NCBI RefSeq assembly: GCF_012273515.2
Contig: NZ_CP050975.2
Location: 4,960,001-5,024,000, forward strand
From: Streptomyces sp. RPA4-2
GTDB lineage: Bacteria > Actinomycetota > Actinomycetes > Streptomycetales > Streptomycetaceae
Length of the DNA: 64,000 nt
Direction: 5' to 3'
The notes beneath the pieces are model-generated. The model did not search any database, was not told where the DNA came from, and was given only the letters and a program-made list of their open reading frames with translations. This document shows, one piece after another, positions 12,736-55,272 of this stretch. How positions within the stretch are numbered: the stretch's first letter is position 1; every line of letters begins with the position of its first letter. Made by a program: the position numbers and the translations under genes.

Positions 12736-13770
12736 ATGGCCGGGCACGGGGCGGACAGGCATCCGCACGGCGCTGACCGACTGTGTGACGCGGGGGACCG
12801 GGTGTACTCCCGGGCCGTGCGGCGCGGGCGGGTGCCGCGCGGTGACGCGGAGGCGGTGCCCTGCCTGGTCGAACTGGCGCTGCTGCACCCGGACCCCGAC
12901 GACATGGGGTGGCTGGTGCCGACCTCGCCGCAGGAGGTCATGACGCGGCTGATCCGGGGTGTGTACGAGGAGGTCAGCGCGAGCCAGGCGCGGCTGGGCG
13001 ACGCGGTGACCGCGTTCGAGTGGTACGCCGGGCTAGGCGGCCGCGTGCAGGCGCAGGCCGAGGGGGTCGCGATCCGTGTCCTCGACGGGCTGCCCAGGAT
13101 CCGGGCCGCGATGGACGAGGCGACCGAGGCGTGCACCAGCGAGGTGCTGACGGTGCAGCCGGGCGGCATCCGCCGCGAGGACGAGCTGTCGGAGGGGCTG
13201 CACCGGGCGCTGGAGATGCGCAGGCGGGGCGTGCGGATGCGGGACCTGTACACGCACGTGGCACGGCACGGCCAGGGCCTGCATAACTACATGGAGATGA
13301 TGGGGGGCGCGGCGGAGGCCCGGACGCTCGACGAGGTCGTGGAGCGGCTCATCCTCTTCGACCGCAAGGTGGCGTTCATCCCCGCCAACGACGACCGCAC
13401 GATCGCGCTGGAGCTGCGGCATCCGGCGCTGGTCGACTACCTGGTGACGGTCTTCGAGCGGCTGTGGCGGCTGGCGATCCCGCTCGCCGCCCCGCTCCCG
13501 GAGACCGGCATCGACGGCATCACCCATCGCGAGCGTTCGATCGCCGCGTTGCTCGCCGAGGGGCACCAGGATGCGGTGGTCGCCGAGCGGTTGGGGATCA
13601 GCGTGCGGACCTGCCGGGCGCACATCGCACGCCTCTCGGAGACTCTGGGAGCGGCGAGCCGTACGCAGTTGGGCGTCCGGATCGCGCAGGCGGGGCTCGA
13701 CGGGCCGCCGCGCTCCCCGGAGCCGCTGCCGGTCAGTGCTCCTGGTCCAGAATCCCCGACTGGGCGATGA
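12736..13770 (+). CDS. LuxR-type transcriptional regulator, paralogue of the convergent neighbour
   Basis: A 344-residue regulator with a helix-turn-helix at the C-terminus: THRERSIAALLAEG, then VVAERLGISVRTCRAHI near residues 270-320. The middle part (EVLTVQPGGIRR, GVRMRDLYTH, KVAFIPANDDRTIALELRHPAL) resembles the ligand or effector domain of TrmB-like regulators with a PLD-type fold. No receiver domain is present, so input is probably a small ligand or peptide. The ATG at 12736 follows GGGTGGGAG. It shares clear similarity along its length with the gene on the other strand (for example VPCLVELALLHPDPDD against APCLMELSLLHPDPDD), and the last 38 bp of the two genes overlap tail to tail. Confidence 0.82.
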   Translation: MAGHGADRHPHGADRLCDAGDRVYSRAVRRGRVPRGDAEAVPCLVELALLHPDPDDMGWLVPTSPQEVMTRLIRGVYEEVSASQARLGDAVTAFEWYAGLGGRVQAQAEGVAIRVLDGLPRIRAAMDEATEACTSEVLTVQPGGIRREDELSEGLHRALEMRRRGVRMRDLYTHVARHGQGLHNYMEMMGGAAEARTLDEVVERLILFDRKVAFIPANDDRTIALELRHPALVDYLVTVFERLWRLAIPLAAPLPETGIDGITHRERSIAALLAEGHQDAVVAERLGISVRTCRAHIARLSETLGAASRTQLGVRIAQAGLDGPPRSPEPLPVSAPGPESPTGR

Positions 13771-14716
13771 GGTAGCCGAGTTGCGCCCGGCTGCCGCTGC
13801 CGAGCGAGGTGGCCAGTTTCGCGATGTGGGCGCGGCAGGTGCGGACGTTCATGCCGAGGCGACGGGCGATGGCCTCGTCCACGTGGCCCTCCACCAGGAG
13901 TTTGGCGATGGAGTGCTGGATGTTGGTGATGCCGCCGGGGGCGGTCTCGTAGGGGGCGCCGGCGGTGAGCGGGACGGCGCGGCCCCAGATGAACTCGAAG
14001 ACCTTGATCAGGTAGCGGACGAGTCCCGGATGGCGCAGTTCCAGGGCGACCTGCTGGTCGTCGCGGGTGGGGATGAAGGCGACGCTCTCGTCGCAGACGA
14101 TGAGGCGCTCCACCAGTTCGTCGATGGTGCGGTACTCGACCTTGCCGTCGGAGAGCTGTGCGACGTAGGCCAGTTTGTCGGGGCTGTAGCGGGCGGTGTG
14201 CTGATACAGCGTCCGGATCTTCACACCACGTTCGATCAGCGGCCGGTCGCGTTCCAGTCCCTGGAGGAGGCTGCGCTCGGAGCCGCGGTCGCTCGGCTGG
14301 ATCGTGAGCATCTCGTTCTGGCACTGGGCCGTCGCCAGGTTCAGTGCCGCGTTGATGCGGTCGCCGCCCTCCAGCACCGTGATGGAGTGGGTGGGCGTCG
14401 CTCCTGGGACACTGAGGGCCATGAACGGCTCAAAAGCGTCGCTCAGCTCGATCGAGAGTCGCCTGCGTTCGGTGATCTCGCGCTCTATGGGGTTGAGTCG
14501 CTGGGCCAGGGCCACCGAAGGGGGCACCGGTCGCAGCCAGTTCGCGTCATCGGGATCGGGGTGGAGGAGTGAGAGTTCCATCAAGCAGGGGGCGGCCTCC
14601 ACGTCGGCGCGCGCGATACGTCCTATGCGCAGCGCGTTCGCGTAAAGACGGCCTCCGTCCTCGCACAGCCGGGTCACACTGTGGGGATGTGTCGCATTCG
14701 TCTGATGTGTCACCAA
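13733..14716 (-). CDS. LuxR-type transcriptional regulator next to the repeat-peptide gene
   Basis: A 327-residue paralogue of the preceding gene with the same order of parts: an N-terminal RLCEDGGRLYANALRIGRIARADVEAAPC segment split by helices, a TrmB-like middle (NEMLTIQPSD, GVKIRTLYQHTARYSP, VAFIPTRDDQQVALELRHPGL) and a C-terminal LuxR helix-turn-helix (DEAIARRLGMNVRTCRAHIAKL). The GTG start at 14716 is used because the frame is closed upstream and a 16-bp near-palindrome sits 18 bp away. It is divergent from the repeat-peptide gene at 14830 with a 113-bp gap, the usual layout of a local regulator. Its end overlaps the paralogue's end by 38 bp. Confidence 0.85.
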   Translation of the reverse strand: MVTHQTNATHPHSVTRLCEDGGRLYANALRIGRIARADVEAAPCLMELSLLHPDPDDANWLRPVPPSVALAQRLNPIEREITERRRLSIELSDAFEPFMALSVPGATPTHSITVLEGGDRINAALNLATAQCQNEMLTIQPSDRGSERSLLQGLERDRPLIERGVKIRTLYQHTARYSPDKLAYVAQLSDGKVEYRTIDELVERLIVCDESVAFIPTRDDQQVALELRHPGLVRYLIKVFEFIWGRAVPLTAGAPYETAPGGITNIQHSIAKLLVEGHVDEAIARRLGMNVRTCRAHIAKLATSLGSGSRAQLGYLIAQSGILDQEH

Positions 14717-14733
14717 AACTCCACCCCCCAGGG

Positions 14734-14749
14734 TCCTGAACGTGCAGGA
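14734..14749. promoter_or_regulatory. Candidate operator TCCTG-N6-CAGGA between regulator and peptide genes
   Basis: TCCTGAACGTGCAGGA is a 16-bp palindrome with one mismatched pair around an ACGT centre. It lies 18 bp upstream of the leftward LuxR-type gene and 80 bp before the peptide gene, which suits control of both. A second short palindrome, GATGCATC, follows at 14754-14761. Binding by the local regulator is inference. Confidence 0.4.
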
Positions 14750-14829
14750 ACATGATGCATCGATTATGTGGCCACGACGTGCCCGAATGAGCCATCGTCT
14801 TATTCGACGGGGGAAGACGGGACTTTCAA

Positions 14830-15111
14830 GTGAGGACGAAGCCGACTATGCGTAACAAAATGCTTCGCTCGGTGCTTGTCGCCGCCTTCTCCGCCGTGGT
14901 GGCATTCGGAGCGCTGGGCGGCCTCTCCGGGGCGAAGGGCGATGTACTGGCGGACAGTCACTGGCCGTCGGTGGCCGTGGACGGTGTGCTGGCGGACAGC
15001 CACTGGCCGACGGCGGCCGCGGACGGTGTCCTGGCGGACAGTCACTGGCCGGCGCCAGCCCCGAACGACGTGGTGGTGACTCCGGCGGCGGATGACGGCT
15101 CCGGGAGTTGA
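14830..15111 (+). CDS. Small secreted protein with three 14-residue VLADSHWP repeats
   Basis: The product has 93 residues from GTG 14830, or 87 from ATG 14848, which has GAGGA upstream and gives a cleaner signal peptide (MRNKMLRSVLVAAFSAVVAF). After an Ala/Gly cleavage region come three tandem 14-residue units at 14944-14985, 14986-15027 and 15028-15069, each beginning VLADSHWP and followed by variable SVAVDG, TAAADG or APAPND. A short acidic tail ends in DDGSGS. No family is recognised. The layout resembles precursors that release several copies of one peptide. The next gene starts 1 base after the stop and is likely co-translated; the LuxR-type gene is divergent. Function unknown. Confidence 0.8.
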   Translation: MRTKPTMRNKMLRSVLVAAFSAVVAFGALGGLSGAKGDVLADSHWPSVAVDGVLADSHWPTAAADGVLADSHWPAPAPNDVVVTPAADDGSGS

Positions 15112-15112
15112 C

Positions 15113-15448
15113 GTGACGACGCCCCCCGACGACCGCTCCTTCCGTCGCGAGATGGCCACCGCCTACCGCTCCGGCTGGCACTTCATCGACCTGGCGACCG
15201 CGATCCCGCACACCGGCGATTCGCTGATGGTGACCGTGTTCGGCGAGCCGGTCGTCGTCACCCGGGACGAGGACGAGGACGTACGGGCGTACCGGTGTCT
15301 GCGACGGCCGCGCGGCGCGCCGCAGCCGGTGCGATGTGCCATCCGGTACGGAATGATCTTTGTGAACCTCGATCAGCGTGACCATCAGCTGGCCGAGCCG
15401 GAAGCCCCGGACGTAAGGACCATCTCAGCCACCCCCCGCAGTGCCTGA
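15113..15448 (+). CDS. Rieske-like small protein lacking cluster ligands
   Basis: The 111-residue product starts at GTG 15113, one base after the peptide gene stop, with GGGAG 6 bases ahead. The first half matches the start of Rieske oxygenases: YRSGWHFIDLATAIPHTGD, then MVTVFGEPVVVTRDEDEDV and RAYRCLRRPRGAP. The second half matches the segment after the Rieske domain in ring-hydroxylase alpha subunits (VRCAIRYGMIFVNLDQRD). The Cys-x-His and Cys-xx-His segments that bind the 2Fe-2S cluster are absent, as if removed by an internal deletion, so it cannot hold a normal Rieske cluster. It could be a decayed fragment or a reused fold; coupling to the peptide gene favours a role with it. Confidence 0.65.
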   Translation: MTTPPDDRSFRREMATAYRSGWHFIDLATAIPHTGDSLMVTVFGEPVVVTRDEDEDVRAYRCLRRPRGAPQPVRCAIRYGMIFVNLDQRDHQLAEPEAPDVRTISATPRSA

Positions 15449-15491
15449 CGCGATTCCCCCGTCGTAGTAGATCGCGCAGGTACTTCCCCCC

Positions 15492-15532
15492 GCAGCGGCG
15501 TCACCGTGACCTGAACACGGTGACGCCGCTGC
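15492..15532 (+). terminator. Terminator after the peptide/Rieske-like unit
   Basis: A perfect 17-bp stem (15492-15508 with 15516-15532), a 7-base loop and a following AGTTTTGG tract mark a classical intrinsic terminator 43 bases after the Rieske-like gene. It supports a two-gene transcript starting before 14830. Confidence 0.87.
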
Positions 15533-26726: not shown

Positions 26727-27002
26727 CTCGTCCTCAAACGCCGGACGGGCTGGAGATGCGGGCCCACGCCGGAGATGCCGGCCCGCGCTGGAGATGCGGG
26801 CCCACGCCGGAGATGCCGGCCCGCGCCGGATGGTTCCGACTGAGATGCCGGCCCGCGCTGGAGTTACCGGCCCGCGCTGGAGATGCCGGCCCGCGTCGGA
26901 GTTACCGGCCCGCGCCGGAGATGCCGGCCCGCGTCGGATGGTTCCGACTGGAGATGCCGGCCGCGGCCATGTCTTTCAGCCCGTCCGGCGTTTGAGGACG
27001 AG
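26727..27002. repeat. Inverted repeat enclosing a minisatellite
   Basis: The 26-bp arms CTCGTCCTCAAACGCCGGAC... (26727-26752) and its inverse (26977-27002) flank about 224 bp. The same arm sequence occurs in the larger palindrome at 60134-60380, so it belongs to a repeat family of this genome. It could act as a transcription terminator for both sides. Confidence 0.75.
26753..26968. repeat. About ten 19-bp tandem repeats
   Basis: The unit GAGATGCCGGCCCGCGCTG is repeated about ten times with variants GAGATGCGGGCCCACGCCG and GAGTTACCGGCCCGCGCTG. Two copies of GATGGTTCCGACT interrupt the array. Frames through it give only Ala/Arg/Pro repeats, so it is not coding. Start and end are approximate. 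Confidence 0.75.
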
Positions 27003-54312: not shown

Positions 54313-55272
54313 TCAGGACATGCCGCCCGCCGCGCTCCTGCGGCGCATCGCGTACACGCCCGCCGCGGCGAGGGTCAGGACCGCGAGGCCGCCGGCCGTG
54401 ACGGTCTTCTCGGCCAGCGCGCCGCCGCCGGTGTGCATGCCGCCGTTCGGCTTGTCGCGGCCCGAGTCGTTGCCGCCGTTGTCGTACCCGGTGCCTCCGT
54501 CGTTGTTGCCGTTCCCGTTTCCGTTCCCGTTGCCGTTGCCTCCGTTGTCGCGGCCGGAACCGTTGCCGTTGCCGTTGCCTCCGTTGTCGCGGCCGGAACC
54601 GTTGCCGTTGCCGTTGCCTCCGTTGTCGCGGCCGGAACCGTTGCCGTTGCCGTTGCCTCCGTTGTCGCGGCCGGAACCGTTGCCGTTGCCGTTGCCTCCG
54701 TTGTCACGGCCGGAACCGTTGCCGTTGCCGTTGCCCCCGTTGTCGTTCTTGTAGGTCTCCGGGTTGAACTTCGCGTCGTCCTTGTTCCAGTCGTCGCTCT
54801 TCAGCATGCTGAGCGCGCCGCCGCCGGTGTGCATGCCGCCCCGGGGCTTGTCGTGGTCGGAGCCCTCGTCGCCACCGCGGCCGGAGTCGCCACCGCGGCC
54901 GGAGTCGCCACCACGGTCGGAGTCGCCACCGCGGTCGGAGTCCCCGCCACGGTCGGAGCCCTTGCCGCCCTGGTCGGAGTCGCCGCCCCAGTCCGAGTCG
55001 CCCTCCTCGCCCTGGTCGTCGCCCTTCAGCTTGGTGTGCGTGCCGCCCTTCACCGTGGCGAGCGGACCGATCTTCACCTTGTTGAGCGCGCCGCCGCCGG
55101 TGTGCATGCCGCCGTTGGGCCTGTCGTGCCTGCTGCCGTCGTCCTGTTCGTTGCTGTAGGAAGAGTCGTCGTGGCCACCGTCGCCCGCCGTGGCGGCAAA
55201 GGCGCCGGGAGCGGCAATCGCGAGGGCGGCCGTGGCCGTCGCGGTAGCGAGAAGCATGCGGGCAGAACGCAT
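54313..55272 (-). CDS. Exported repeat-rich protein, candidate sortase substrate
   Basis: A 319-residue protein with a signal peptide (MRSARMLLATATATAALAIA, cleavage after GAFA). The body is low complexity: a Gly/Asp/Arg/Ser block (RGGDSDRGGDS) and an Asn/Gly block of five 13-residue units (NGNGNGSGRDNGG). The motif GGMHTGGGAL occurs three times, near residues 54, 143 and 280. The last copy is followed by a hydrophobic helix (TAGGLAVLTLAAAGVYA) and a basic tail (MRRRSA), which is the layout of a cell-wall sorting signal with MHTGG in the place of LPxTG. The hydrophilic repeats suggest a surface stalk. The sortase gene follows. Function unknown. Confidence 0.75.
   Translation of the reverse strand: MRSARMLLATATATAALAIAAPGAFAATAGDGGHDDSSYSNEQDDGSRHDRPNGGMHTGGGALNKVKIGPLATVKGGTHTKLKGDDQGEEGDSDWGGDSDQGGKGSDRGGDSDRGGDSDRGGDSGRGGDSGRGGDEGSDHDKPRGGMHTGGGALSMLKSDDWNKDDAKFNPETYKNDNGGNGNGNGSGRDNGGNGNGNGSGRDNGGNGNGNGSGRDNGGNGNGNGSGRDNGGNGNGNGSGRDNGGNGNGNGNGNGNNDGGTGYDNGGNDSGRDKPNGGMHTGGGALAEKTVTAGGLAVLTLAAAGVYAMRRRSAAGGMS
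54539..54733 (-). repeat. Five 39-bp tandem repeats inside the repeat-rich gene
   Basis: Five units of CCTCCGTTGTCGCGGCCGG... at 54539, 54578, 54617, 54656 and 54695 encode NGNGNGSGRDNGG on the minus strand. They are almost identical (one A for G in the fifth), which indicates recent expansion and a length-variable region. Confidence 0.88.

Follow-up and report, generated by a model that had tools for sequence, protein, structure and literature searches.

A candidate multicopy peptide pheromone precursor that co-evolves with its divergent regulator in Streptomyces

The window analyzed here, a 64,000-nucleotide stretch of the Streptomyces sp. RPA4-2 chromosome, contains a small gene whose product carries three copies of a short core. 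Comparison of the corresponding loci in other Streptomyces genomes shows that each protein of this family carries, with few exceptions, a single core type, that gene order around the precursor is conserved, and that the core co-evolves with the regulator encoded divergently beside it. The neighboring ClpB, regulator paralog reg2, and Rieske-like protein have no comparable signal. The protein is likely to be secreted and to serve as the multicopy precursor of a short linear pheromone, which in this strain would be DSHWP or DSHW; the divergent regulator would be the cytoplasmic receptor of this peptide.

The Precursor Gene

The precursor and its cores lie as follows.

14830 to 15111, forward strand: precursor gene, an ORF with a GTG start encoding 93 aa, with an alternative inner ATG at 14848
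14953 to 14967, forward strand: core 1, DSHWP (from the translation and core statistics)
14995 to 15009, forward strand: core 2, DSHWP (same basis)
15037 to 15051, forward strand: core 3, DSHWP (same basis)

The sequence VLADSHWP occurs three times in the precursor with a period of 14 residues (42 nt), followed by the spacers SVAVDG, TAAADG, and APAPND. The initial annotation had described three such units at this spacing with differing 6-residue spacers, and the ORF, its translation, and Tandem Repeats Finder (array 14943 to 15051, score 176) agree. When the mature part was shuffled 20,000 times, any 4-mer appeared three times in only 3 shuffles; the observed repeat is an 8-mer present three times. 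As judged by eye, the N terminus resembles a signal peptide, with basic residues followed by about 18 hydrophobic ones. The precursor has no above-cutoff match in Pfam, NCBIfam, or PHROGs (NCBIfam gave only sub-cutoff matches of 14.4 and 11.4 bits). The window has further tandem arrays at 54488 to 54745 (39-nt unit, about 6 copies) and at 26749 to 26962 (108-nt unit, 2 copies).

Distribution of the Family and Uniformity of the Core

A protein search with the precursor returned 255 relatives at E <= 1e-3, and those with organism names among the 120 matches listed are from Streptomyces. Read by eye, these 120 have a conserved N terminus, MLRSVLVAAFSAVVAFG, followed by copies of [D/N][S/T]xW plus one residue. 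Profile A1 matched 237 of 392 Streptomyces genomes (E <= 1e-3) and profile A4, which includes divergent members, matched 304 of 392 (E <= 0.01), the other 88 having no match to A4. In the sample of the family taken beyond Streptomyces, two more genera gave weak matches that are probably spurious, located within reading frames 937 and 1207 aa long, and a 21-mer of the leader matched outside the genus only with 2 mismatches.

Two nonredundant sets were compared: 190 loci yielded 162 unique peptides, and 266 loci yielded 232 unique pairs of peptide and regulator. Absent from the pair sets are L081 and L082 (own locus), L083 to L085 (weak matches), L195 to L209 (paralog loci), and L286 to L296. 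The unit of the family is a core of 4-5 residues that reads [D/N]-[S/T/I/L/F]-x-W plus one residue and is present 1-10 times per protein; 31 different core 4-mers occur across the 232 pairs, with DIAW, DITW, DIGW, DLGW, DLAW, and DFGW in divergent members. The 8-residue VLADSHWP that had been proposed as the unit is a genuine repeat in this strain, but relatives share only DSHW or DSHWP, and VLA is flanking sequence.

One identical 4-mer is found in all copies of 154 of the 163 multi-copy proteins in the 232-pair set. Among the 162 unique peptides, 120 have at least two cores; x is uniform across copies in 113 of these and mixed in 7, compared with a mean of 16.5 and a maximum of 29 uniform proteins in 5000 shuffles. 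Position x differs from protein to protein (15% identity between proteins) and seldom within one protein. Within-protein copy identity (rounded) at core positions 1-5 is 1.00, 1.00, 0.95, 1.00, and 0.63, where copies were located by motif, which partly dictates positions 1, 2, and 4 and leaves x and position 5 free; at the five residues preceding the core it is 0.13-0.28. On the tree, x changed 26 times in the first copy and 29 times in the last copy, with 24 of the changes on the same branch.

The DNA units of the window strain, spacers included, are 77-86% identical and therefore fairly recent, which would suit an incidental repeat whose copies are alike only through recent tandem duplication. 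Against this, spacers agree at only 13-28% in relatives whose cores match, copies change together on the tree, single-copy members retain the core motif, and the regulator predicts the core (see below). Core uniformity, joint copy changes, held-out prediction, and the shuffle test all contradict an incidental repeat, and it can be given almost no credence. The earlier proposal of selection on core against spacer holds up, as copies match in the core and not in the spacers and the core co-changes with the regulator. It had also been expected that in Streptomyces genomes the repeat number would vary while the core was kept and the divergent regulator was present. The number does vary (1-10) and the regulator is there (190 of 190 loci), but the core is not kept across species. 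The accompanying view that homologs with a nonconserved core would mark the repeat as incidental was misdirected, because the core changes between species yet is almost always identical within one protein.

Two features bear on the processing of the precursor. In 96 of 232 precursors, the Trp of the final core is followed by exactly one residue and then the stop, suggesting that the core is a pentapeptide. Additionally, Ala directly precedes the first core in 162 of 232 precursors; since signal peptidase I prefers Ala before the cleavage point, this was counted in favor of a secreted precursor.

Gene Order and Neighboring Genes

The genes that flank the precursor in the window are the following.

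13733 to 14716, reverse strand: regulator, the proposed receptor, 327 aa, with a PLD/TrmB-type domain (about 106-255) and a LuxR-type HTH (about 259-327)
12736 to 13770, forward strand: reg2, a convergent regulator paralog, 48% identical to the regulator
15092 to 15448, forward strand: Rieske-derived small protein (ORF from the ATG at 15092, likelier start GTG 15113; Rieske-fold matches)

The order in 80 named loci is regulator (reverse strand), precursor, Rieske-like gene, often a PNPOx-like gene (reverse strand), and clpB. The last is present in 73 of the 80, and in the other 7 the contig runs out no more than about 1.1 kb from the peptide match. The divergent regulator is directly beside the precursor in 190/190 loci and the Rieske-like gene is present in 189/190, the exception sitting at a contig end.

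The Rieske-like protein (about 106-118 aa) is highly conserved and single copy in the genome of the window strain. Its conservation and strict linkage would be expected if the precursor encoded a RiPP whose core Trp is modified by this adjacent protein, the product being the modified peptide. This is highly improbable, since the consensus has Arg at what we take, from the His ligand motif of Rieske proteins, to be the cluster-binding His positions, and since the protein is so short and shows no co-variation with the core. The initial annotation had allowed for a RiPP-type product; no RiPP machinery was seen in the operon, where the sole co-oriented downstream enzyme-like neighbor is this Rieske-derived protein with Arg for His.

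Related loci (e.g., L184, L020, L035, L042, and L058) carry an extra tandem regulator paralog, reg-prime, on the same strand downstream of the regulator. A search of the window strain's own genome for paralogs gave 15 matches, including the regulator and reg2 themselves. At 8 of the 13 other TrmB-LuxR paralog loci, two small ORFs with a hydrophobic start were found, neither with repeated cores, and a wider peptide family beside these paralogs was rejected for the loci scanned.

Co-evolution of the Core and the Regulator

Three parts of the regulator go with particular core positions.

14309 to 14311, reverse strand: codon of regulator residue 136 (Met), which pairs with core position 2
14258 to 14290, reverse strand: codons of regulator residues 143-153, a loop tracking core position 3 (x)
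14054 to 14056, reverse strand: codon of regulator residue 221 (Gln), which goes with Pro at core position 5

Parsimony changes at each regulator residue were compared with core changes on a tree of the regulator plus the Rieske-like protein (tree 1; columns with >30% gaps or <3 changes skipped) and on a tree of ClpB plus the Rieske-like protein without the regulator (tree 2; 136 of 162 loci, columns with >40% gaps or <2 changes skipped). On tree 1, all 21 changes of residue 136 coincided with a branch on which core position 2 went from Ser to Thr or back (1.8 expected; binomial p 5.9e-23); the next best of 202 regulator columns had p 0.004. On tree 2, residue 136 matched 34/34 changes.

The pairing is also seen directly in the 232 pairs. 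Ser at core position 2 occurs with Met136 (146 pairs) or Val136 (1 pair, L059, with one DSKWA and one DTKWP copy), Thr with Val136 (73) or Leu136 (3), Ile with Val136 (5), Leu with Ala136 (1), Val136 (1, in L276, which has Val and not Ala), or an unread residue (1), and Phe with Ala136 (1). A bigger peptide side chain is thus found with a smaller residue 136 (Ser-Met, Thr-Val/Leu, Ile-Val, Leu-Ala/Val, Phe-Ala), as expected of direct packing. The regulator might instead change in parallel, without contacting the peptide, if a third protein such as an importer binding protein or a protease were the selective partner. This is quite improbable in view of a single regulator residue that matches 21/21 switches with size complementarity when the other 201 columns do not.

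Core position 3 is followed by the loop: on tree 1, changes of x coincide with those of residues 143, 150, 146, and 145 (p 1.9e-6 to 2e-3), and on tree 2 columns 48 and 239, which are among the five that fit x best, fall outside the loop. At position 5, Pro goes with residue 221 as Gln (97), His (2), or Arg (1) among the 232 pairs, and other residues go with Arg (110), Gly (17), Gln (4), or an unread residue (1). The tree 1 signal for residue 221 is weak (p 0.003, 202 columns), so the rule may partly reflect clade inheritance. On tree 2 the position 5 signal is less specific, because many regulator columns (188, 221, 118, 126, and 149) follow Pro/non-Pro, which fits block co-inheritance of the pair. 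The D/N alternation at core position 1 changed only twice on tree 1, too few for a co-change test. Members whose regulator has Gly221 (L170, L171, L229, L233, and relatives) have 4-10 cores with a variable fifth residue (0/17 uniform), as if position 5 were unread by the regulator; they look like one clade.

The same comparison was made for the neighboring proteins. The best column of the Rieske-like protein had p 0.14 (tree 1), that of ClpB p 0.003 of 186 columns (tree 2), and that of reg2 p 0.044 of 155 (tree 2), while residue 136 of reg-prime had no relation to Ser/Thr in the core (152 rows). With no co-change signal, reg2 was rejected as the receptor.

Core residues could also be predicted from regulators that had been held out. 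In a first set of 40 further loci, 7 were set aside (regulators already seen) and 33 were scored; Met136 or another residue predicted Ser or Thr in 33/33, and the Gln/His221 rule for Pro at position 5 held in 33/33 as well (residue 221 of L246 is unread and was scored as non-Gln). A second set had 36 loci, 7 of them with regulators already seen; among the remaining 29, Ser or Thr was accompanied by a readable residue 136 in 20, and the Ser/Thr rule held in 20/20 (counted by eye). Nearest-neighbor prediction of x from loop 142-152 had an accuracy of 0.80. The remainder of the protein gave 0.76, and other windows as long as the loop averaged 0.35 (maximum 0.68). When relatives of >84% identity were left out, the values were 0.55 for the loop, 0.35 for the rest, and 0.19 (maximum 0.37) for the windows. 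The code for x is incomplete. Together, core uniformity, the linked divergent regulator, and core-regulator co-change give good support to the original proposal of a multicopy precursor of short signaling peptides.

Predicted Structure of the Regulator

The AlphaFold2 model of the regulator (pLDDT 81, pTM 0.57) consists of a PLD-fold domain and a LuxR-type HTH. The nearest solved structures are TrmBL2, TrmB, and PLD-family proteins, a sequence profile matches TrmBL2 (E 4.5e-11), and a C-terminal LuxR (GerE) HTH is present. No TPR was seen in the model or among the Pfam matches. In the model, residue 136 lies in strand 135-140 with the x loop directly after it, and residue 221 lies between strands 212-216 and 223-227. 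Residues 136, 143-153, and 221 are thereby predicted to line a ligand cleft. The x loop varies more than any other part of the PLD domain (identity 0.47 vs 0.79 elsewhere in the domain). The same loop is not variable in reg2 (0.86 vs 0.85). In reg-prime it is again the most variable part, and more so than in the regulator (0.20 vs 0.64 across the remaining PLD domain), as if this paralog sensed other, fast-changing ligands.

The Shared Promoter and the Leader

The region between the regulator and the precursor is strongly conserved and includes two elements.

14736 to 14756, no strand assigned: candidate operator-like element of the divergent promoter; its consensus has two GAACATG repeats 10 bp apart
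14827 to 14878, forward strand: leader and first codons, nearly invariant, with a possible hairpin across the start

The window copy of the first element reads GAACGTG and GAACATG, and the element is a candidate operator. When the whole genome was searched with its 21-mer (<=3 mismatches), only its own site was found. The rare Leu codon CTT, used for 1 of 180 Leu codons in three neighboring genes, is retained near the start in 216/216 and 206/212 sequences. A hairpin could form across the start; its pairs are kept, with no covariation, and Rfam gave only two sub-threshold matches on 14500-15500. Among 224 sequences, the inner start is ATG in 224/224 and the outer start is GTG (204), ATG (19), or GTA (1). 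Because L275 and L277 do not have the MRTKPT frame, translation may in fact begin at the inner ATG (14848).

Proposed Mechanism

From these comparisons we infer a circuit of export, processing, re-import, and direct contact with the regulator, through which the peptide would act on transcription in one direction or the other and so have a physiological output. The hydrophobic N terminus would send the precursor out of the cell, where signal peptidase and extracellular proteases would release the cores, and an oligopeptide importer would bring the core peptides back in. The peptide would then sit in a pocket of the PLD/TrmB-type domain, with residue 136 packing on side chain 2, loop 143-153 reading side chain x, and residue 221 near position 5. 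Binding may alter the action of the regulator at the promoter that the two genes share, which is highly conserved, and possibly at other sites, including in antibiotic control. Peptide and receptor would drift together, giving rise to many species-specific signal types.

A different account keeps the protein unreleased, intracellular or anchored in the membrane, with its DSxW motifs titrating the regulator in the same cell and with neither free peptide nor cell-to-cell signal. Co-evolution demonstrates recognition and not secretion, and a copy number of 1-10 suits a titrator. This account is nevertheless unlikely given the signal-peptide-like N terminus (by eye) and the precursors that stop one residue beyond Trp (96/232). 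Moreover, the HTH regulator is cytoplasmic, whereas the hydrophobic start would take the cores outside.

Relationship to Known Systems

The RRNPP systems of Bacillota (Rap-Phr, PlcR-PapR, AimR-AimP, and Rgg-SHP) use a short linear peptide whose specificity drifts between species. The Streptomyces system resembles them in its predicted short linear peptide, in the drift of specificity between species, and in a small propeptide gene that adjoins the receptor gene (190/190 loci). The criteria for RRNPP systems given in one source are a TPR receptor of 250-500 aa, an adjacent propeptide gene, and a small exported propeptide that yields a short re-imported peptide (PMC10075063). The regulator, at 327 aa, is within this size range but has a PLD/TrmB-type domain and a LuxR HTH with no predicted TPR. 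The Streptomyces host, the 1-10 cores per precursor, and the D/N at position 1 and Trp at position 4 (in the motif used) also differ from RRNPP systems. The proposed system would operate much as RRNPP pairs do, yet it is not a member of that group.

Profile and fold place the regulator with TrmB/TrmBL2 regulators, as it shares a TrmBL2-like architecture with a PLD-like effector domain; unlike the archaeal proteins, it has a C-terminal LuxR-type HTH, a proposed peptide ligand, and a bacterial host. The yeast alpha-factor precursor has a signal sequence, tandem near-identical short cores, and variable spacers. The Streptomyces precursor is similar in its signal-like start, tandem short cores, and variable spacers, but it is bacterial, has a core of 4-5 residues and no conserved protease-recognition spacer that could be seen, and its proposed receptor is a cytoplasmic transcription factor.

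We know of no peptide pheromone receptor with the fold of this regulator. No description of the precursor-regulator pair was found in the open-licence literature searched; an earlier description elsewhere is possible. None of the peptide systems known to us or found here has this precursor family, a peptide sensor of this receptor class, or this host group. The general logic of secreted peptide and cytoplasmic receptor is shared with known systems, and on a stricter view the pair may be a variant of this logic.

BldK of S. coelicolor imports an oligopeptide signal that affects antibiotics and development, and the consulted part of the source does not name the gene for the signal (PMC11303876). 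That this signal is linked to the DSxW precursor family is only an idea.

Antibiotic Production and Significance

An insertion study of S. coelicolor lists SCO3664, a "regulator," among the targets with actinorhodin raised >50-fold and in some mutants >200-fold, and complementation succeeded in 12 of the 16 regulator mutants in which it was tried (PMC6585502). Other sources give SCO3661 as clpB (PMC2687793) and SCO3665 and SCO3666 as LuxR-family proteins of 327 and 394 aa (PMC3282765). The order at locus L184 (end of reg2, extra paralog, regulator, one DSHWP core, Rieske-like gene, clpB) matches the S. coelicolor order, and on this ground SCO3664 is taken as the receptor ortholog, by synteny and not by sequence. 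A link between the peptide-regulator pair and antibiotic production is therefore possible, resting as it does on synteny with SCO3664.

It is fairly probable that the pair represents a genus-wide Streptomyces pheromone system of secreted multicopy DSxW(P/S/G/D) peptides and a TrmB/PLD-LuxR sensor, with a specificity code (residue 136 for position 2, residues 143-153 for x) and dozens of species-specific types that gate antibiotic production; tandem regulator paralogs, whose loops are still more variable, may sense other signals. The signals of actinobacteria are typically small molecules made by enzymes, as described in PMC10075063. If the proposal is correct, a ribosomally made pheromone and its receptor, present in 304/392 sampled Streptomyces genomes, would add a new branch to the known forms of communication among bacteria. 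The pair would bring with it a specificity code that can be read, and it might offer a way to influence antibiotic control. Two old questions would also become testable, namely the cargo of BldK-type importers and whether peptide type lets Streptomyces distinguish kin from non-kin.
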